Made by a program: the position numbers and the translations under genes. A model generated the notes under the pieces. That model ran no database searches. It saw only the letters and a list, made by a program, of their open reading frames with translations, and was not told the DNA's origin. Below, piece by piece: positions 19,106 to 56,013 of a stretch of 56,021 nucleotides of DNA. The DNA comes from an uncultured Spartobacteria bacterium (GTDB taxonomy: Bacteria; Verrucomicrobiota; Verrucomicrobiia; Chthoniobacterales; Chthoniobacteraceae), in the NCBI GenBank assembly GCA_903919125.1, contig CAIXGS010000078.1, forward strand, positions 1-56,021, written 5' to 3'. The stretch's first letter is position 1, and the number at the start of each line of letters is the position of its first letter.

Positions 19106-20971
19106 CTATTTCGGAGTCACCGAAAGGCGTTCGAGCCACTGCGCGGTCTTTTCACGCAAAAGGTGCGGCAGCTCTTGAGTTTGTGTGTTGGGGAACGCCG
19201 CACCCGTGCTCGTTTCCAACTCGCTTCCCACCCCTGCCACGCCCTCAGCCGCGTGCTCTAAAAACGCCCTTGCGTCTTGCGTTAACACACTGTCCTGCTT
19301 GTTTTTACTCAACTCATTAAGACGCTGTTCCAACAACCACAGGTACTCGTAATCCTCCGCGCCCTTTCGCATCATTTCCCAACGCACCGAAGGCACCAAC
19401 CCCTTCCCTGCTGGGTCCGGATAAAATAACTGACCCATCCCCCAAACCGTGCCGCCTTTAAACTGGGGGTACACGAGCGCGGGTTCCTGCCACGCCTTCT
19501 CAAGTTCGCCCATCGTTTCAAAAGTAAGCCATCCGCGAGCACCGGTTTTCCAGCAGAGCCATCCAAGCGTGCGCGGCGCAACCATGGGATAATCGATGAA
19601 CGTGCGATAATTGTCGCAAAACGTGAGCACCCCACCACCAGCAGGCACCGGAAATTTTCCACTTCCCGCAGCCTCCAAATTGCGCAGGCACCACTGGTCA
19701 ATTTGTCCTTCCAACTCCGGCACAGGATTAGCCGTGCAAAATGTTTTCAATAGCGGCGCCGACTCTCGAATCAACCCGACGAGACTCCGGATGACCGCGT
19801 AGTTATTCTGCGGGAGATCACGCTCCATCCCCTCACCCGCAACGTGGCGTGTGTACGGTTCATCCATTGTCGAAACGAGCACCCTTCCCGCCCATCCTCG
19901 GCGCTCAACCACCGCATTGACCGCCTTTAAGTAACTCGCGAAAAGCGTTTTGAATTCAGCAGTCAAAGCGCCTTCTTCATTACAAACCAATGCTCCCGGC
20001 AAACCCGGCGCAGGAAAAGCCGGCCAGCGTTGGCGAAGGACGGCAGGGAAATGCCACAGAAAGTATACCCCCTGCATCAGCCCACGCTCTGAGCCCCACA
20101 CCGGCAAAAACACCTGCGGTAACTTCATCTCATCCAAAATATACGAGGCTTCTTTCTCCCAACCACTCAGGTCTACGGAAAGTTCAGGCCCAGCCAAAAC
20201 TCGCAACTCCGGAGCAGGCAGAATCGGCTCGGGCGTCTGGCGATGTGCAGCAAAATCCTCATAAAGCGGGCGTCCACCTGCTGGGGTCGATAGCTTTGCG
20301 ATTTGGTTTGCAGAATAGTACGCCGTATTGAGCAAAGGAGAGGGCTGCGGCAGCGCAAAACTACGCACCGTCAGTTCTACCGGTATATGCACGGGAACCT
20401 CCAACGCTGGGGGCATCCAACCTTCTTTCCGAAAGCTGACGATCGCCTCGCCATGATATAATCCAGCCGAGATTCCTCTGGGCACATTCACCGCCACCCA
20501 AAACTGTAAGTTATGAGCCGGACGCACCGCCGCGAGACCGCTCAAAAGAGGATCAGGGAACAATCCGGTACCGGTTTCAAACGGCATTTTCTGTGCGATT
20601 CGTGTGCCACTGGGTTCGTCGATATAAATGTAGCCGAGGTGGCGCGCGGGAAGCTTCTGAGCCGGGATCACGGTGCCGTTTGGGCCCGTAAGTGCAGACA
20701 GGCGCACCTCAACTTCACGCAGCGGCACCTCAGGACGCAGCACCAAAAGGAAGGGCTCCGTCTCACCCTGAGCGGCACTCAATTCCACCTTCGTTGCCCT
20801 TGTTCCCTCAGACGGTTGCTCGTTCGCCTTAATCTTTTCGGGAGGATAAACCAAATAAATACGATGCTTCCAACCCTCCGAAATAAGATTAGCGGAGACA
20901 GTTGCAGCAGTGAGTTGAAGCAGCGCTCCAAACCAGAATAGTAAAAATAAAATAGCGAGGCGCATCTTCAT
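19106..20971 (-). CDS. Secreted DUF4091 / GH123-like glycoside hydrolase
   Basis: A 621-residue protein with an N-terminal signal peptide (hydrophobic run LAILFLLFWFGALLQLTAA). An N-terminal beta-sandwich (about 30-230; VELSAAQGETEPFLLVLRP, VNVPRGISAGLYHGEAIV) precedes a barrel domain ending in LGWLCWKTGARGWLTFE, WGMGQLFYPDPAGKGLVPSVRWEMMRKGAEDYEYLWLLEQ. This ending is typical of the DUF4091/GH123-type proteins. The substrate is not predictable; GH123 enzymes are beta-N-acetylgalactosaminidases. A candidate catalytic region is the STMDEP stretch (near residue 365). It lies 181 bases upstream of the copper-domain protein on the same strand and may be expressed with it as part of polysaccharide breakdown. 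Confidence 0.75.
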   Translation of the reverse strand: MKMRLAILFLLFWFGALLQLTAATVSANLISEGWKHRIYLVYPPEKIKANEQPSEGTRATKVELSAAQGETEPFLLVLRPEVPLREVEVRLSALTGPNGTVIPAQKLPARHLGYIYIDEPSGTRIAQKMPFETGTGLFPDPLLSGLAAVRPAHNLQFWVAVNVPRGISAGLYHGEAIVSFRKEGWMPPALEVPVHIPVELTVRSFALPQPSPLLNTAYYSANQIAKLSTPAGGRPLYEDFAAHRQTPEPILPAPELRVLAGPELSVDLSGWEKEASYILDEMKLPQVFLPVWGSERGLMQGVYFLWHFPAVLRQRWPAFPAPGLPGALVCNEEGALTAEFKTLFASYLKAVNAVVERRGWAGRVLVSTMDEPYTRHVAGEGMERDLPQNNYAVIRSLVGLIRESAPLLKTFCTANPVPELEGQIDQWCLRNLEAAGSGKFPVPAGGGVLTFCDNYRTFIDYPMVAPRTLGWLCWKTGARGWLTFETMGELEKAWQEPALVYPQFKGGTVWGMGQLFYPDPAGKGLVPSVRWEMMRKGAEDYEYLWLLEQRLNELSKNKQDSVLTQDARAFLEHAAEGVAGVGSELETSTGAAFPNTQTQELPHLLREKTAQWLERLSVTPK

Positions 20972-33988: not shown

Positions 33989-34070
33989 TCCGAGCTGCAT
34001 CTGCTGCTATAACTTAATGCCAGTTTTGTATTCTTTTGCCACCGTAAGTTGATGGGAAAGCGCGTCGGAA

Positions 34071-34083
34071 AGTGTCTGTCCCC
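34071..34083 (+). repeat. AGTGTCTGTCCCC motif copy 3
   Basis: It lies in the loop region of an imperfect hairpin (CGCGTCGG at 34061-34068 with CCGGCGCG at 34082-34089, one wobble). About 190 bases further right begins the small DUF2805 gene. Confidence 0.55.
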
Positions 34084-48706: not shown

Positions 48707-49828
48707 TTATTTAAAATTTATTACACAATCGTGCGGGCGAGATCTTAGGGCTAGATTTATTTCATGCTCAAACTTGGATTCTGGATAATACCAGTCGTCA
48801 TTCTGCTGCAACCGTTGTTCCCCAGAGGCACAGCTAAGCGTGATGCTTTCACCGCCAAGAGTTGCAAAAAAGTCGAAGAGCAAAGCGCACTCGAAAAAAG
48901 GATTTTCTAAAGTTGGCAAGCCGGGGACAAGTTGAATAGAAGTAGTTTTCTCGGTAAACAGGGCAAGGTGCGAACCCTGTCCATGTGGGGCGATCAGCAC
49001 CGGCGCACCGGCCACCGCGGCCAACTGCTCTTTAAATGAGTATCCCTCAAGGCAGATTCTTTCTAAATCGGGCAAGAGGCGGCGTGAAATTTCAAAAATA
49101 CGATTTTCGTTAACCAGTCGGCGGCGAGGCGCATCGCCACGAGAAATGAAAACAGGTTTTTTTTTCAAATGCATTCCAAGCAAGGCGTTGTGTCTTAGGC
49201 TTAAGTAATGATTCGGGTCGCCTATCAGGTTTGTGATCGGCTCGTCCGCTAATGGAACAAAATAAAGTTCGCTCGATTGAATTGTGCCAAATGAAGTCTC
49301 CCTACAATTGATCTTTGCCCCGGTAGCCTGGAGGTAAGGAGTATGCCATTCAGATTGCCCTTTTTGTACAATAACTTGTGTATTCCTGGGTAAGAACTCT
49401 CTCGCGATTTCGTATCGTGACAGATGTTGCATTACTGCATGGGCCCGGCTAACGCTGTTTTCAGCGAGATAGAAAAGCGGAGCATCTTCCCGAGATGACA
49501 GCTTAGGTAGGGGTCGCATCATCTTTTGCGGATCTACGCCCCCTTGACCAAGGGGTGTCCGCCTGTTTAGGAAGATATAACCTTGAGGGCCAACCACCCA
49601 GCAATCTCTAAAGCAAAACAGATCAACCGAAGGCTGCCTGATAACTAGGTTTGGACAAGGGGAATGAAGTGATTGTAGTTGGCTACAAAAGATTATGTCA
49701 TCCAGTCGCGGGCGAAGTTGACGCACTAGTTGCGGTTTGGGAGGACGGGGAGCAGGCTGTAGAGGGGCGCCAAATGTTGTGCTGATAGAATTGTGAATTT
49801 TATGCAAAACATGATTTAGACTTTTCAT
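48707..49828 (-). CDS. GT61 family glycosyltransferase
   Basis: A 373-residue protein. LFCFRDCWVVGPQGYIFLN near the start, NLIGDPNHYLSLRHNALLGM, KKKPVFISRGDAPRRRLVNE and especially APVLIAPHGQGSHLALF followed by TSIQLVPG match the DUF563/GT61 pattern, where the PHG-G block lies in the C-terminal nucleotide-binding half. GT61 enzymes include xylosyl- and O-linked GlcNAc transferases; the bacterial members of glycan loci are mostly uncharacterised. Flanked by same-strand glycosyltransferase genes, 15 bases after the GT2 gene. Confidence 0.72.
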   Translation of the reverse strand: MKSLNHVLHKIHNSISTTFGAPLQPAPRPPKPQLVRQLRPRLDDIIFCSQLQSLHSPCPNLVIRQPSVDLFCFRDCWVVGPQGYIFLNRRTPLGQGGVDPQKMMRPLPKLSSREDAPLFYLAENSVSRAHAVMQHLSRYEIAREFLPRNTQVIVQKGQSEWHTPYLQATGAKINCRETSFGTIQSSELYFVPLADEPITNLIGDPNHYLSLRHNALLGMHLKKKPVFISRGDAPRRRLVNENRIFEISRRLLPDLERICLEGYSFKEQLAAVAGAPVLIAPHGQGSHLALFTEKTTSIQLVPGLPTLENPFFECALLFDFFATLGGESITLSCASGEQRLQQNDDWYYPESKFEHEINLALRSRPHDCVINFK

Positions 49829-49843
49829 GGCACTCCAATGAAA

Positions 49844-50680
49844 CTAACTGACTTTCGTTTTGTCGAACTTGCGAACTTTCAGCTTGGGAAAGAACAGTTC
49901 CACTTTCTCGAGGCCGGCGTCTCCAAAGACTTCGTAACGCAGCCTAGCCCGAAAATACCCCCCCAAACAGAGCTTGCGGAATCTGTACCAATGCTTAACC
50001 AAACTCATGAGGCAAGACTTCGTATCTATATCTGCAAGCGCGTTTTCCTCAAGGTGCGATTGAGTCGAGCTGAGATTTTCGCCGTGCCAAATAAAAATTC
50101 CAATCGGCTCGCGCTCCACCCGAATCTCGAGGCCTCTTTCCATCTGTTGGCGGAACCACACGTGATCTGCAATTAGCCGATATTGAGTGTCGTAAGGCTC
50201 CCGCTCCCAGAGCGCTCTTCGGTAAAGTAGCGAGCATGACTGCACGGGCATGTGCCAATGCACGTCGCGCACGGTAGGACGAACCACCTGGTTGAAAAGT
50301 TGCATAAACTCCAGCCTGCCGTTTAGCATCACCGTCGGGCTCATGACAGCATCGACATCCTTGTCATCGAGGGCGGCCCAAGCGGCAAGAAGGCCGCGGC
50401 GAGAGTACTGTTCATCCGAATTGAGATGGCCGATAATTTCCCCACGCGCCATAGCGATTCCTTTGTTGAGAGCATCGTACATCCCTGCATCTTTTTCTGA
50501 CAGCAAGCGAATGTCCGATTGTTCTCGCAAATACTCGACTGTTCCATCCGAACTCAATCCGTCGACCACGATATGCTCATAATCCATGCCTTGGCACGCA
50601 TAACGCACGGATTCGACGCAGTTGCGAATATATCGAATCGAGTTATAGCAAGGGGTTACTACCGACAACTTGTGCGTCAT
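49844..50680 (-). CDS. GT2 family glycosyltransferase
   Basis: A 278-residue protein when started at the ATG at 50680 (MTHKLSVVTPCYN), directly behind the stop of the GT9 gene; an in-frame longer version adds 33 unlikely residues. LSVVTPCYNSIRYIRNCVESV, HIVVDGLSSDGTVEYL and GMYDALNKGIAMARGEIIGHLNSDEQY are the GT2 nucleotide-binding and acidic motifs of the subgroup seen in colanic acid and O-antigen loci (WcaA/WcaE-like). FIWHGENLSS is the usual late motif. The donor is unknown. Confidence 0.92.
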   Translation of the reverse strand: MTHKLSVVTPCYNSIRYIRNCVESVRYACQGMDYEHIVVDGLSSDGTVEYLREQSDIRLLSEKDAGMYDALNKGIAMARGEIIGHLNSDEQYSRRGLLAAWAALDDKDVDAVMSPTVMLNGRLEFMQLFNQVVRPTVRDVHWHMPVQSCSLLYRRALWEREPYDTQYRLIADHVWFRQQMERGLEIRVEREPIGIFIWHGENLSSTQSHLEENALADIDTKSCLMSLVKHWYRFRKLCLGGYFRARLRYEVFGDAGLEKVELFFPKLKVRKFDKTKVS

Positions 50681-50681
50681 A

Positions 50682-51809
50682 CTATTGTGGCCTTTGGGTG
50701 TGCGCGCCGCTAGCCAAAGCATCCAATAAATCTCCACTCCGCACACCGCGTATTCCAGCCTCCCCGCCGCCATCCCCAACTAATACGTTGTGCGGAGGCC
50801 CGCTGGGCGCCCAATCCTTCAAGCCGTCATACTGCCGAAACCAGGAAACCGTCGGGACGCCAGCCATCACAGCTAGATGGAGAGCGCCTGAATCGCCCCC
50901 CAAGTGGACACGAGCACCCGCGATGACGCTCACTAAATCTAGGATCTTGAGAGTTCCGGCAAATACGAGCCATGGACGCTCTGGAAGCTGACAAAGAATG
51001 CGGTTAAATTTTGACTGCTCGCGCTCGTTGGGGGCGCAGGAGACAACCAGGCGTCGTCTATTCCCCACCGATAGAAGGCTTGAAATCAGGGAAATGAGCT
51101 CGCCCTCGGGCAGTTCCTTTTGGTCCTGCGTCGTAAAGGGGCTGATGTGGATGTAGTCTCCATCCTCTTCCTCTTGAATGCCGACGCCTCGACGACCCTC
51201 TGCTGGGATGGTGACGTGGAATTCCGGCTTCGTGCCAACCGGAATGCCCGCGAGCGCAAGACAGTTCCAGCGCTGTTCGTACACGGGCATCGTTGCATAG
51301 GGGTGCTCCACTGTTTGGGTAAATTGAAACGGCCAGTGCCACGGGCCGCCACCCTGTGGCCTGCGACCAAGACGCCACCGCGCTCCAGTGAGAAAAGTGA
51401 GCAGACTCGAACGATCCGAACCGTTGAGATTGATGACGGCATCAAACTTTGCTGCTCGGAGTTTCTGTATGCGGTCGAAATCCTGCCAAGGTTTGGGGCC
51501 CTTAGGGAAACGCGGATACCCCCAAACTTGGTCAATCCATGGAGCAACTTCCAAAATTTGTGTCACATGCTCAGCCACCATGACATGGAGCTCCGCCTTG
51601 GGCCAAGCTTGTCGAATGGCCCAGAGCGCGGGCAGTAGGTGGATCGTGTCCCCGAGAAACCCGAGATCCAGCACGAGCAATTTGCGCGCGTCCTTTGAAT
51701 GTTGATAGAAGGAGTCCGGTTGGGTCACGTTTCGATTTGAAAAAGACTTACACAGCAAAGCACCTAGATAGCAAAACTGTACGATGATGAAAGACACTGC
51801 TGCCGGCAA
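50682..51809 (-). CDS. GT9 family heptosyltransferase-like glycosyltransferase
   Basis: A 375-residue GT-B protein. KLLVLDLGFLGDTIHLLPALWAI (given in part) is the GT9 N-terminal motif, FDAVINLNGSDRSSLLTFL follows, and the C-terminal half has ISPFTTQDQKELPE and GARVHLGGDSGALHLAVMAGVPTV, where the GDSG loop binds ADP-heptose in WaaC/WaaF-type enzymes. The start is uncertain: the first 30 residues (MPAAVSFIIVQFCYLG) are weak, and a later start before ARKLLVLDL is possible. It heads the minus-strand block and is divergent from the second GT9 gene, separated by the antitoxin relic. Confidence 0.88.
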   Translation of the reverse strand: MPAAVSFIIVQFCYLGALLCKSFSNRNVTQPDSFYQHSKDARKLLVLDLGFLGDTIHLLPALWAIRQAWPKAELHVMVAEHVTQILEVAPWIDQVWGYPRFPKGPKPWQDFDRIQKLRAAKFDAVINLNGSDRSSLLTFLTGARWRLGRRPQGGGPWHWPFQFTQTVEHPYATMPVYEQRWNCLALAGIPVGTKPEFHVTIPAEGRRGVGIQEEEDGDYIHISPFTTQDQKELPEGELISLISSLLSVGNRRRLVVSCAPNEREQSKFNRILCQLPERPWLVFAGTLKILDLVSVIAGARVHLGGDSGALHLAVMAGVPTVSWFRQYDGLKDWAPSGPPHNVLVGDGGGEAGIRGVRSGDLLDALASGAHTQRPQ

Positions 51810-51848
51810 CTCGCAGGTTCAAAAAGCGTGATACGAGGCGCAAGAATG

Positions 51849-52070
51849 TCAAGTATCCCACACCTTATCATTTTCGCTCATCTCGAGAACCGACTCCGTC
51901 AGAGCATTCGGAACTCCCAATTCGAGGGGAAACTCCTTTCGGATAGCGATTTGCCAGTAAAAGAGGCAGATCGCTTCTGTTGGAGTGCGGCCCAGAGCCG
52001 CTAAAATTCGTTCCGCGGCAACCTTAGTTTAGAGATCGATGCGCACGTCAGGGCCGGCGGATTGTACCAT
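51849..52070 (-). pseudogene. Relic RelB/DinJ-family antitoxin gene with a nonsense codon
   Basis: Reading the minus strand from the ATG at 52070 gives a 73-residue frame interrupted by TAA at codon 14 (52031-52029). Before the stop: VRIDL. After it: TKVAAERILAALGRTPTEAI, CLFYWQIAIRKEFPLELGVPN, which is the ribbon-helix-helix and dimer pattern of RelB/DinJ antitoxins (usual form: VRIDxETK, LGLTPSEAI, FYKQI, LPFE, PN). The TAA stands where the family has Glu (GAA). No RelE/YafQ-type toxin follows; the next gene on this strand is the GT9 gene at 51809. It is too short and too broken to appear as an ordinary gene. Confidence 0.8.
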
Positions 52071-52174
52071 TACCAAGACCACATCACACCCAACAGACGT
52101 TTTCAAAAAACTTGCCTGCTGCTTTCGCGTGCAATCTTTTGGTATCCGGAACAATCTGTGCACCATTAAAGTCC

Positions 52175-53218
52175 ATGCCTCGGTTTGTTAAAAAAAATCT
52201 CTGCATTCTCTTCAAATATCTCGGCGACGTGGCAGTGGCAGTGCCGGCTATGCGAGCGTTGAAGGAAAGCCGTCCCGAGGATGAATTGCACATTTTGGTC
52301 GCGGAAGAAGCCGTTCCGATTGTCCGACATTTACCATGGCTGACCCATGTTTGGGGCCTTCCGAGAAAGAGAGGCAGGGCGCAGTTGCGTAGCAGCCTTC
52401 CCCTTATTGCCGCGTTGCGGAGGGAGCGGTTTGCCTTGTCGGTGGATTTTGTCGGGAATGATCGGGGAGCAATTTTGAGTTTGATGATTGGTGCGCAGGA
52501 ACGGATTGGGCTAATCCCGAAACGGAGTTTTTGGGGCAGAAAACACTGCTACAATCGTCCGGTTTTAGAACAAACAATTCCCAGCGTGGATGTGCATGAA
52601 AGCGAGCGACACCTGAGGCTTCTTCAAGAATTTCACGTCGACCAGAATGCCAATTGCGCGTTGGAGGTGCATGCCGATGATACTCTTGCTCACGAGGCTA
52701 CGGGATTGTTGGAGCCCGGTGCGGTTATCGCGCACCTTTCGACTAGCCAGCCCAAAAAAGAGTGGCCGGTAGAGTATTGGCGGGCGCTTTATCTCAAGGC
52801 GCGTAGTGCAGGAGTGCGGATTGTTTTTGCGAGCGGTCCAAGTGAGCGGGAGCAGGCGCTTTTGGAAGCGCTTCGAGAGATTGAACCGGAGGCGCCGATG
52901 CTGGGGCGGGTTTCGAGTTTAGACTTGTATCTTGCGATTTTAGCTCGGGCCCGAGGGTTCATATCGGGAGACACCGGTCCACTGCATTTCGCCGCTGGGC
53001 TCGGCGTGCCGACGCTTTCACTGTTTGCGGCCACGGATGCGCGCCGCTGGGCACCGCTTGGTGAGAAGCATTGTTGTTTGACAGGCGGAGGTTGTCATTG
53101 CAGCGGTCACGCGCATATTTGCAGTCATGCCGAGCCGTGTATTCGAACCCTGAAAGTGGAGGCTGTTTGGACTGAGCTGCAACGTCTTCTACAAATTTCG
53201 GCGCAGAGGTCTCTATGA
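52175..53218 (+). CDS. GT9 family heptosyltransferase-like glycosyltransferase (second)
   Basis: A 347-residue protein when started at the ATG at 52175 (MPRFVKKNLCILFKYLGD). KYLGDVAVAVPAMRALKESRP is the N-terminal motif, FALSVDFVGNDRGAILSLMIGA follows, and the C-terminal half has AHLSTSQPKKEWPVEYW and ARGFISGDTGPLHFAAGLGVPTLSL with the GDTG donor loop (given in part). The end carries a Cys/His-rich run (CHCSGHAHICSHAEPC). It likely adds a heptose or similar sugar to lipid A-core. It overlaps the next gene by 4 bases (ATGA at 53215). Confidence 0.9.
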   Translation: MPRFVKKNLCILFKYLGDVAVAVPAMRALKESRPEDELHILVAEEAVPIVRHLPWLTHVWGLPRKRGRAQLRSSLPLIAALRRERFALSVDFVGNDRGAILSLMIGAQERIGLIPKRSFWGRKHCYNRPVLEQTIPSVDVHESERHLRLLQEFHVDQNANCALEVHADDTLAHEATGLLEPGAVIAHLSTSQPKKEWPVEYWRALYLKARSAGVRIVFASGPSEREQALLEALREIEPEAPMLGRVSSLDLYLAILARARGFISGDTGPLHFAAGLGVPTLSLFAATDARRWAPLGEKHCCLTGGGCHCSGHAHICSHAEPCIRTLKVEAVWTELQRLLQISAQRSL

Positions 53219-54021
53219 ACAAATTGCTTCCTATCAGTGTTTGCGTCGTTGCAAGGAATGAAGAAAACAACCTGCCTCGCTTATTGGAAAGCATCCATGG
53301 TTGGGTTGAGGAAATTGTTGTGGTTCTGAATAATACAACGGACTCAAGCGCCGAGGTTGCAGCCCGTTATGGGGCCAGAGTGGAGCACCGGCCCTGGATC
53401 GGATACCGCGATACGAAGAACGTTGCGCTTGGGTTGGCTTCCCAACCTTGGGTTTTGGCGTTGGACTCGGACGAGGAAGTATCGCTGGCACTCAAGGAGG
53501 AGATTCTGGGATTTTTTTCTCAAGAGCTGCACCTGCGGTATTCTGGCGCTCGGTTTCCAAGAAAAACTTGGTTTTTAGGGCGCTGGATGCGGCACGGCGA
53601 TTCGTATCCCGACCGGCAGTTGCGCTTGTTCAGACGAGGTGCCGGACGCTGGGGCGGGAGTCCGGAGCATGATAAGATCGAGCTTGAAGGGGATTGCAGG
53701 GAGATGCGGGCGGAGTTGCATCATTTTTCCAATCCGTCGATTGGGAGTTACGTCAGCAAGATCAACGTCTTCTCGGACTATTTTTTAAAGCGCCAACTAG
53801 AAAAGCGAGCGGTGTGGTCGGTGTCTGAAGCCGTCTTTCGTGCTTGGTGGCGATTTGTACGTGCTTATTTTGTGAGGCTTGGATTGCTGGATGGGTTTCC
53901 TGGTTTATTTATTGCCGCCAGCACTGCATACGCCACCTTCGTTCGTTACAGCCGATTGTATGAGCACCTTCACAACGATCCACCGCCCGTCCAAGCCACC
54001 CCTCGTGACATTAGTGGTTAA
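53215..54021 (+). CDS. GT2 family glycosyltransferase, WaaE/KdtX-like
   Basis: A 268-residue protein. ISVCVVARNEENNLPRLLES at the start, VVVLNNTTDSSAEVAARYGARV, the DXD motif D84-S-D86 in WVLALDSDEEVS, and the FPRKTWFLGRWMRHGDSYPDRQLRLFRRG block are the pattern of LPS core beta-1,4-glucosyltransferases of the WaaE/KdtX type. SEAVFRAWWRFVRAYFVRLGLLDG and FVRYSRLYEHL near the end form amphipathic membrane-facing helices usual in this group. With the two GT9 enzymes it points to lipid A-core assembly. It overlaps the next gene by 62 bases. Confidence 0.9.
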   Translation: MNKLLPISVCVVARNEENNLPRLLESIHGWVEEIVVVLNNTTDSSAEVAARYGARVEHRPWIGYRDTKNVALGLASQPWVLALDSDEEVSLALKEEILGFFSQELHLRYSGARFPRKTWFLGRWMRHGDSYPDRQLRLFRRGAGRWGGSPEHDKIELEGDCREMRAELHHFSNPSIGSYVSKINVFSDYFLKRQLEKRAVWSVSEAVFRAWWRFVRAYFVRLGLLDGFPGLFIAASTAYATFVRYSRLYEHLHNDPPPVQATPRDISG

Positions 54022-54784
54022 CACCTTCAATGCTCCAGATGCCCTCGAGAAGGTGCTTTCTGGAGTGAATGCTCAGTCTGCGGCACCATTGGAAGTTTTG
54101 GTGGCAGACGACGGGTCTGGGCCTGCAACCATCGAGCTTGTAGATGCTTGGAAAAGCCGTTTAAACTTCCCGCTGACGCACGTGTGGCAGACGCACGAAG
54201 GTTTTCGTCGCACTCATGTACTGAACCAGGCAATCCTCAAGGCGGCGGGCGACTATTTGGTTTTTCTCGATGGGGACTGTGTGCCGCATGCGGAGTTTGT
54301 GGCGGATCACGCGGCGCTCGCGGAACCGGGGCATTGGGTGCAGGCGCGGCGTTGTTTTGTGAAAGAGCGGCACGTGGCGGAGTTCAACTTAGCGAGGATC
54401 AGCGTCGCGGGTTGGGTGGCGAGACGGAGGATTGAGCAGGGGCTTAAGGCGTTTCGCACGCCGTGGCAAAGCGTTCGTTTCGACAAAGATTTGCGAGGCG
54501 TTATCGGGTGTAATCTTGGAATTTGGAAAGAGGATTTGGTTGCGGTGAACGGGTACGACGAAACGTTTACTGGCTGGGGGCGTGAAGACAGCGATCTTGC
54601 GGCACGGTTGTTTCACCTCGGACGAGGTCGCAAATTTGTGAGGGGGCGAGCGGTGGTGTTTCACCTCAACCACCCGGTGGCATCGCGAGCGCAGTTAGAG
54701 AGCAATCAGGCGCGTTTGGATGAAACGCTTGCAACGAAGCGTGTTCGGGCCGTGCGGGGACTTCACGAGCGGATGCCTGCATAG
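53960..54784 (+). CDS. GT2 family glycosyltransferase
   Basis: A 274-residue protein when started at the ATG at 53960, inside the end of the preceding gene; an in-frame start at 53879 is possible but would extend the overlap to 143 bases. VTLVVNTFNAPDALEKVL and VLVADDGSGPAT form the donor-binding half, the DXD motif is D104-G-D106 (YLVFLDGDCVPH), and GWGREDSDLAARLFHLG is the catalytic ED region. This form is typical of chondroitin/hyaluronan-like and LPS GT2 enzymes (galactosyltransferase C-terminal domain group). It ends the last glycan block. Confidence 0.9.
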   Translation: MSTFTTIHRPSKPPLVTLVVNTFNAPDALEKVLSGVNAQSAAPLEVLVADDGSGPATIELVDAWKSRLNFPLTHVWQTHEGFRRTHVLNQAILKAAGDYLVFLDGDCVPHAEFVADHAALAEPGHWVQARRCFVKERHVAEFNLARISVAGWVARRRIEQGLKAFRTPWQSVRFDKDLRGVIGCNLGIWKEDLVAVNGYDETFTGWGREDSDLAARLFHLGRGRKFVRGRAVVFHLNHPVASRAQLESNQARLDETLATKRVRAVRGLHERMPA

Positions 54785-55008: not shown

Positions 55009-55281
55009 TCAGCCCTCTAAGTGAGAGGCAAAGGCTTCCAGCGAGGAAGCCTTTAGCGAGTGAATGAGGAGGTTCCTCAGCTTGGCGAGGTTCTGTTCAT
55101 GCTGCACCTTCTCAAGCAAACCTTCCGGCACGCGTTCAAAGCGAACATTCAGGACATCGATAACCGAGCGTTGAGCCTCCGCAGCACAGCCCTCTTGCCT
55201 GCCTTTTTCCAAGCCTTTTTCCAAGCCTTTTTCGAGGCCTTCTTCCCTGCCTTCTTCGCGCCATTGTTCAGCAAGAGTCAT
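55009..55281 (-). CDS. Candidate intragenic RpnS-like product (internal start, same frame)
   Basis: The in-frame ATG at 55281 (residue 245, MTLAEQWREEG) is preceded on the minus strand by AAAGGA with 7 bases between it and the ATG, a better ribosome-binding site than most genes in this window have. It would make a 90-residue protein consisting of the EGxEKG repeat helix and the C-terminal domain. This matches in place and size the short antitoxin forms known from E. coli rpn genes. Use of the start is inferred, not shown. Confidence 0.5.
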   Translation of the reverse strand: MTLAEQWREEGREEGLEKGLEKGLEKGRQEGCAAEAQRSVIDVLNVRFERVPEGLLEKVQHEQNLAKLRNLLIHSLKASSLEAFASHLEG

Positions 55282-56013
55282 CGCTTTTTCCTTTAAATTT
55301 CTGTCGTGAAGACTGTTGAGCGTTTTGCGGAAGGCGTTTCTATCGATGTCCCTGTTACTGATGTAACGAAAAAGTCTCTCAACAGCGTTCTCGCTCGCGC
55401 TCAGTAGTAGAATCTCATCAAAAACCATCGCATGCAACAACTCTCCCAGAGCGTCGGCTCGTAAAGCGCGCATTGAAAGCACTCCCGCAGCCGAGCCACG
55501 CATCTCCGCATAACCAAGAGAGACCAGTTGGATGAGCTCAAAAGTAAAATCGGGAGTGTACACAGACGGCGCCCCTTGGCCAAACAAAGCGCCAAAACGG
55601 GGTTCGGTCCGCCACGCCTCGCTGCTTTGCGCAAGAACCACCGGAATGATGGGCGAGAGAAACGGCTTTTGTTTGGAGGCAACGACGTTGACACGTTGTC
55701 TCTCCCAAATTTTTACCATGTAACTCAGTAGACGAAGCGCCATCCATGGGTCTTCTCGACTTTGATGTTCGAAGAGAATGTAGATGAACGCCTCGCCAGA
55801 CTGAGAAGATATACTAAAAAGCAAATCACTTTCTGAGCCAATGAGTTCCGCATCAATGAAACTGCCCGCTTGTTGACGGAGCGTGCGCCAGTCCAGCGAA
55901 GCAACGAGATCTGTGGTGAGATAGTTTTGGAAAAAAGCAGTGGCGTTTTCGAGCTCGGAGAAAGTCGAACGAAACAGTTTGTCGTTGGGTTGATGGACGG
56001 GTTGGTCGGCCAT
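55009..56013 (-). CDS. Rpn-family PD-(D/E)XK nuclease (recombination-promoting nuclease/putative transposase)
   Basis: A 334-residue protein. PNDKLFRSTFSE at the N-terminus, then the nuclease core: FIDAELIGSESDLLFSI with D63 and IYILFEHQS with E82 and Q84, an E-x-Q form of the PD-(D/E)XK motif. RLLSYMVKIWE and PIIPVVLAQ continue the Rpn pattern. After the core comes a helical region with an EGxEKG tetrapeptide run (residues about 250-275) coded by 12-bp repeats, and a C-terminal 60-residue domain. In E. coli, rpn genes promote RecA-independent recombination and encode a full-length nuclease plus an inhibitory short product from an internal start. A strong internal start is visible here at 55281. 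Confidence 0.85.
   Translation of the reverse strand: MADQPVHQPNDKLFRSTFSELENATAFFQNYLTTDLVASLDWRTLRQQAGSFIDAELIGSESDLLFSISSQSGEAFIYILFEHQSREDPWMALRLLSYMVKIWERQRVNVVASKQKPFLSPIIPVVLAQSSEAWRTEPRFGALFGQGAPSVYTPDFTFELIQLVSLGYAEMRGSAAGVLSMRALRADALGELLHAMVFDEILLLSASENAVERLFRYISNRDIDRNAFRKTLNSLHDRNLKEKAMTLAEQWREEGREEGLEKGLEKGLEKGRQEGCAAEAQRSVIDVLNVRFERVPEGLLEKVQHEQNLAKLRNLLIHSLKASSLEAFASHLEG
55190..55261. repeat. 12-bp tandem repeats inside the rpn gene
   Basis: Six 12-base units, among them CCTTTTTCCAAG twice in a row (55202-55225), then CCTTTTTCGAGG and three more diverged units. They encode the EGxEKG-type repeats. Being in multiples of three, gains or losses would keep the frame. Confidence 0.85.

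Follow-up and report, generated by a model that had tools for sequence, protein, structure and literature searches.

The closest described systems are the Rpn nucleases of the RpnL/RpnS type, known from E. coli RpnA-RpnE and RpnP2 and from a C. difficile rpn with E. coli as the expression host (Zhong et al. 2023, PMC10327210). Within E. coli RpnA, the RpnS antitoxin has its published start at Met244; in the E. coli rpn genes and in the one C. difficile gene expressed there, the short form was removed by mutating ribosome-binding sites (PMC10327210). The crystallised RpnAS (PDB 7TH0) comprises RpnA residues 244-292, with Met244 as its first residue, and folds as a three-helix bundle. The domain DUF4351 has been described for the separate rpnS genes of some species (PMC10327210). 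A joint-name literature search for the Rpn family in Verrucomicrobi found no publication, and PMC10327210 was the only on-topic work among the 20 of 255 matches listed for RpnS/RpnL. For genes within genes, the matches listed were PMC10327210 and a review on restriction-modification.

The rpn gene described here lies at one end of a 56,021-nucleotide stretch of DNA (the window), which is an entire contig (G000:C78) of an uncultured Spartobacteria genome of 4.34 Mb in 87 contigs. We consider it highly probable that this gene is an rpn of the RpnL/RpnS intragenic toxin-antitoxin type, with translation from Met245, pairing governed by repeat length, and a likely role in phage defense. By the features that can be tested from sequence, it belongs to the known RpnL/RpnS family; its nuclease activity, toxicity, neutralization and role in phage defense are expected by analogy with the E. 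coli work. The features of the locus are listed in Table 1.

Table 1. Features of the rpn locus, by position in the window, with strand and basis.
Feature	Position	Strand	Basis
rpn gene, RpnL-like full-length product, 334 aa, stop codon included	55009..56013	-	Open reading frame; PF04754 E 8.4e-39; TIGR01784
RpnS-like C-terminal product (predicted), 90 aa with Met245 as first residue, stop codon included	55009..55281	-	Alignment to RpnA Met244; codon-choice signature in relatives
Predicted internal start codon ATG (Met245)	55279..55281	-	Met in 64/64 aligned sequences
AAGGA, Shine-Dalgarno-like word 7 nt before internal ATG	55289..55293	-	Also in closest copies L002 and L015; not above chance
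Six 12-bp (4-residue) units REEG REEG LEKG LEKG LEKG RQEG, 72 bp	55189..55260	-	Read from sequence
Asp63 codon, predicted active site	55825..55827	-	Asp in 64/64 aligned, including window gene, E. coli RpnA and RpnC
Glu82-His83-Gln84 codons, predicted active site	55762..55770	-	Glu82 64/64, Gln84 62/64; E-H-Q block also present in RpnA and RpnC

The rpn gene and its surroundings

Domain scores placed the full-length product in the Rpn / YhgA-like family (PF04754, COG5464). A Pfam profile search matched PF04754 (YhgA-like, Transposase_31) over residues 8-183 with an E value of 8.4e-39 (133.7 bits against a cut-off of 21), and TIGR01784 scored 58.3 bits (cut-off 52.1). BLASTP aligned the protein to E. 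coli RpnA at 27% identity over 264 aligned positions (E 2e-18), with MTLAEQWREEGRE over MTIAERLRQEGEQ. We take D63, E82 and Q84 to be the catalytic residues, following the pattern of the PD-(D/E)XK superfamily. The sole PADLOC result on the product was a 'putative invertase' model at residues 214-278 (E 5e-5). An AlphaFold2 model of the full-length protein, built from 4 sequences, was poor (mean pLDDT 43), and the sequence matches that the entire product gave in the PDB, to TRPM7 with E values no better than 0.05, were rejected. An open frame at 55060-55296 on the forward strand was likewise rejected as a gene, being the opposite strand of the repeat array.

The rpn start codon is 8 bp from the contig end, so the visible DNA does not include the long form's promoter and leader. 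The six genes adjoining rpn (window 48707-54784) encode glycosyltransferases of Pfam families 61, 2 and 9, so that this copy looks to adjoin a surface-sugar cluster; Pfam matches revealed no defense genes among these six on the visible side, the other side being the contig end. We also observed a 15-bp word, GGGACAGACACTTTC, with 42 copies in the genome, of which 22 are forward and 20 reverse (the reversed control gave 0 and 0); it is present in the window at 34068-34082 and may be a REP-like element. Five matches to Y1_Tnp (PF01797) were present in the same genome.

Paralogs and tail-only copies

The genome contains 14 rpn matches, six of them full length or nearly so: the window gene, a copy 84% identical to it on contig C76 (L002), and four full copies at 44-45%. 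The remaining matches are contig-end pieces, or tail-only or decayed pieces. We found rpn matches in 10 of the 12 genomes of the genus and in 26 of 213 genomes of the order, with at most 10 candidates per genome scored. PF04754 scored above cut-off in 12 of 40 family genomes, with 11 stretches in the window's genome and 0 to 11 elsewhere, counts in which pieces split at contig ends enter more than once. A scan of named genomes yielded three relatives, in MAGs labelled Chthoniobacteraceae and Opitutus sp. GAS368 (Opitutus being Verrucomicrobiota, Opitutales) and in a Candidatus Poribacteria MAG; the compared stretches of the Chthoniobacteraceae and Opitutus relatives were identical to loci of the genus genomes G011 and G003. 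Among plasmid records, 4165 of 72,556 carried a relative, none spanning 80% of the query; 10 of 50,697 phage records had matches, at under 60% identity, and the viral_contigs scan gave no relative.

This abundance, with copies at contig ends and many plasmid records containing a relative, would suit a transposase or DNA-mobilizing enzyme that has spread as a mobile gene, as the old name 'putative transposase' implies. Kingston et al. 2017 (PMC5350276) is on the side of that explanation and Zhong et al. 2023 (PMC10327210) is against it, and we regard it as very improbable.

A number of loci carry the tail of the protein alone. In a survey of 17 loci chosen by hand (many other partial matches end at contig ends and are uninformative), nine had tails without a complete nuclease part, namely L066 and L067 in the window's genome and L119, L120, L121, L122, L138, L061 and L137. 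In L151 a frame change splits the nuclease part and the tail is intact; L144, L148, L149 and L150 are nuclease fragments with no tail; and L047, L064 and L136 each hold a full copy, accompanied in L047 by two further tails (one with stops) and in L064 by a fragment. At none of these 17 loci did a complete nuclease part lack its tail. The tail-only copy L066 begins at the equivalent ATG, and its homology to the full gene extends from 18 nt before that ATG, corresponding to the parental leader. Because the set is small and hand-picked, the tail-only pattern is a lead only. Two direct copies of GGGACAGACACTTTC flank L066 (G000:C31:19921-19935 and 20227-20241). The L064 fragment (G000:C76:355731-355838), just downstream of L002, is a decayed piece covering rpn residues 209-244 and is perhaps the remnant of a tandem copy.

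Conservation of the proposed internal start

As the original prediction had it, the ATG at 55281 is in frame within the reading frame 55009-56013 (reverse strand) and would open a 90-residue C-terminal product. In BLASTP and multiple alignments, RpnA Met244 falls in the column of window Met245. Methionine occupied this position in 64 of 64 aligned sequences, comprising 62 open frames (the window gene and the Poribacteria copy included) together with RpnA and RpnC; the frames counted were those of at least 305 aa from retrieved loci, a subset of the order-wide matches, and some were cut by contig ends. One sequence, L017, had Gln in this column in a first alignment and Met in the larger one, on which the 64/64 count rests. 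Within the genus, Met245 was the only internal methionine invariant across 39 of 39 sequences.

The adjoining Thr246 and Ala248 are likewise invariant in the genus, indicating protein-level constraint at the site. This constraint is what would be expected if only the full-length protein were made, with Met245 and the MTLA stretch kept for their place in the protein, perhaps where a dimer helix begins, and with the repeats serving as a flexible linker or coiled-coil spacer. The window gene's own codon-choice test, which was not significant, also suits such an explanation. However, protein constraint leaves the synonymous codon choice described below unexplained, in which 56 of 56 genes fold less and the effect is the largest of the scanned windows, and the tail-only copies start shortly before Met245. 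We consider full-length translation alone improbable.

The AlphaFold2 model of the 90-residue tail consisted entirely of helices (mean pLDDT 78). Its best Foldseek match in the PDB had an E value of 0.99, and 7TH0 was absent among the best 50 of 73 matches. DUF4351 (PF14261) remained below cut-off on the window tail (11.6 bits against 25, E 0.3) and was not listed for the four other tails scanned.

Shine-Dalgarno sequences and the proposed internal start

The suggestion of a good ribosome-binding site before 55281 did not hold up. The genome as sampled shows no Shine-Dalgarno excess and the AAGGA word is not conserved, making this a weak ground for internal initiation; its occurrence is within chance, and it is probably not the driver of initiation. 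The word is spelled by adjacent Lys and Glu codons, and when the seven codons concerned were recoded synonymously, 46% of the versions likewise had a Shine-Dalgarno-like word (at least 4). Such a word preceded Met245 in 4 of 40 sequences against 6.3 expected, these being the window gene, L002, L015 and L017, the last with a different word and, in that alignment, an aligned residue other than Met. Elsewhere within these rpn genes, in-frame ATGs were preceded by one more often than Met245 was (58 of 151).

Among 102 clean ATG starts drawn from the window and 400 kb of the genome, 13% had a Shine-Dalgarno word of at least 4, compared to 14% in shuffled leaders; a cruder count in the window found one at 7 of 37 first ATGs. 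The identical rule applied to E. coli gave 53% of 15 starts versus 30% in shuffles, and annotated E. coli starts had Shine-Dalgarno words in 29 of 42 cases versus 12.2 in shuffles. Leaders in the window's genome contain little G and carry C/T at -3 to -1. A pattern search of this genome for the anti-Shine-Dalgarno sequence returned 0 matches, and the 16S 3' end was therefore read from a genus member, which retains the CCTCC anti-Shine-Dalgarno. The lineage fits the published class that is 'SD-scarce with conserved CCUCC', which includes some Verrucomicrobia (PMC10783764). Two sequences from the order but outside the genus, L136 and L109, have AAAAGGAG words ahead of the internal Met, unlike genus members, and are perhaps recent acquisitions from Shine-Dalgarno users.

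Codon choice around Met245

Synonymous codon choice was compared in three lineages: the genus (39 genes), another family (10 genes) and a sister genus (7 genes). The codons from -8 to +6 around Met245 folded less than the mean of their synonymous recodings in 39/39, 10/10 and 7/7 genes, respectively, with a folding relief of 4.6, 4.7 and 4.5 kcal/mol (200 recodings) and a median P per gene of 0.035, 0.022 and 0.035. The Met245 region is low in G and high in A, and G around Met245 was 2.3 to 4.0 under the recoding expectation. In a scan from -220 to +70 codons from Met245 in steps of 10 codons (40 recodings), which leaves the gene's first start region outside, the window at Met245 stood at +4.82, +4.62 and +4.60 kcal/mol in the three lineages, and the remaining windows reached at most +2.5 kcal/mol, except a partly overlapping one at +10 codons (+2.8, +4.2 and +2.6). 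When the genus genes were grouped as sequence clusters, 18 of 18 were positive at Met245, and the effect was greatest at +2 to +4 codons. In a separate scan of 307 windows of 7 codons, the one just upstream of Met245 had the 9th lowest difference between observed and expected G; the six windows listed with the lowest values have their ends at residues 248-254.

The Met245 regions of the relatives resemble the real starts of the window's own genome. Across 102 real starts, dG averaged -3.2 and the G count 7.2 per 45 nt, compared to -9.6 and 13.5 for ordinary internal ATGs (n=197); the rpn Met245 sites averaged -1.45 and 6.15 (n=39), and other methionines within rpn genes had a mean dG of -11.1 (n=143). 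The window's Met245 site has a dG of -3.7, exceeding 96% of internal ATGs. Taken by itself, the window gene was not significant against its recodings (P 0.14 for folding and 0.08 for G content), and its closest copies gave similar values of P (0.26 and 0.07 for L002, 0.08 and 0.21 for L015). For the window gene itself, translation from Met245 is a prediction. The original claim of an rpn gene in which an RpnS would start internally, as in E. coli, is supported by the PF04754 match, the correspondence of Met245 with RpnA Met244, the invariance of this methionine, and the codon-choice signature of the relatives.

It is conceivable that the G-poor, unstructured stretch is instead an internal promoter or an RNA-processing site that gives rise to a short tail mRNA, on which initiation at the start codon would be of the usual kind. 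In E. coli, transcription also begins inside the rpn genes and gives a short transcript (PMC10327210), and low G with high A would suit a promoter. The signal, however, is strongest between the start codon and about +6 codons and not at an upstream promoter distance, and we consider this origin of the stretch unlikely, although less so than translation of the full-length protein alone. It is compatible with internal initiation at Met245 and is no replacement for it.

The repeat array

Six 12-bp units just after the internal start were part of the original prediction and were confirmed at 55189-55260, from residue 8 of the short form. The first unit (short-form residues 8-11) is at the edge of the range of 8-20 residues after the Met in RpnL/RpnS. 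Tandem Repeats Finder reported 55201-55257 with period 12 (4.8 copies, 86% matches) and, in a second report, 55188-55258 with period 24 (3 copies).

The proposal that the units can expand or shrink in frame is supported, at the level of variation among paralogs and species, by a variable 4-residue array. In 54 of 62 sequences (8 were dropped, having no anchor match), the stretch between Met245 and the following conserved block could be measured; it ranged from 27 to 119 residues across relatives, and 46 of the 54 lengths fell in one class (3 mod 4) and 8 in another (2 mod 4), indicating mostly 4-residue steps. The window gene has six units and L015 three; L002 falls short of the window gene by 9 residues, a difference that is no multiple of 4.

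The start of the helix has undergone larger duplications (SLADQYRQEG..., SLAEQFRQEG...) in L051 (G009:C16), L118, L102, L103, L127 and L126, in which the duplicated copy is without Met, and also in L023, in which the Met is kept. Absence of the Met may be a sign that a second start is selected against.

Proposed mechanism

We propose that the 334-aa product would act as a PD-(D/E)XK-type DNA nuclease, and that ribosomes would also initiate at the in-frame Met245 to produce a 90-aa C-terminal helical protein. The short protein would pair with the equivalent region of the long form and so restrain the nuclease. The 4-residue repeats would extend the pairing helix common to both forms, so that gain or loss of a 12-bp unit would alter both partners together and change the matching of long and short forms among paralogs. 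The likely role would be phage defense of a toxin-antitoxin type. In this lineage, initiation at Met245 would rely on the G-poor, unstructured stretch, and not on Shine-Dalgarno pairing.

We lean, by a modest degree, toward a broader form of this proposal, in which rpn antitoxins across the order would have a Shine-Dalgarno-independent start in the middle of the coding sequence, kept unstructured by synonymous codon choice under selection, and the adjacent repeats would re-pair toxin and antitoxin among several (up to about ten) paralogs and tail-only antitoxins.

Comparison with known systems

The window rpn is like the RpnL/RpnS systems (PMC10327210) in its PF04754 nuclease domain with a D...E-x-Q motif, in a predicted in-frame internal start ahead of the C-terminal domain at the equivalent Met, in 4-residue repeats just past that Met with array length varying in 4-residue steps, and in the presence of separate tail-only copies and several copies per genome. 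It differs from RpnAS in the length of its tail, 90 aa compared to 49, and in a tail model without a detectable structural match. Unlike the RpnL/RpnS systems, it resides in a genome without Shine-Dalgarno excess and, by Pfam, has no defense genes among the six on its visible side.

The locus also invites comparison with Shine-Dalgarno-scarce translation in Bacteroidota and Akkermansia, as set out in PMC10783764. As in that case, there is no Shine-Dalgarno excess, yet the 16S of a genus member keeps CCTCC; unlike that case, the proposed start here is inside a gene. Leaders in the window's genome are poor in G and have C/T from -3 to -1, whereas that source gives upstream adenines for Bacteroidetes. 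A further likeness is to the TAEL repeats of the restriction enzymes EcoR124I/II, in which, as cited in PMC10327210, the number of in-frame 4-residue repeats alters specificity; the protein there is a different one, and its repeats set DNA spacing, whereas in Rpn they set partner matching.

If internal initiation free of Shine-Dalgarno pairing is true of these genes, it becomes testable on a naturally multi-copy gene family, and synonymous avoidance of structure offers a way to detect internal starts where no Shine-Dalgarno exists. Our results provide comparative evidence for an antitoxin made from within rpn across an order of Verrucomicrobiota. Compared to the known systems, what is modestly new is the indication that an internal start independent of Shine-Dalgarno pairing has been retained throughout an order.
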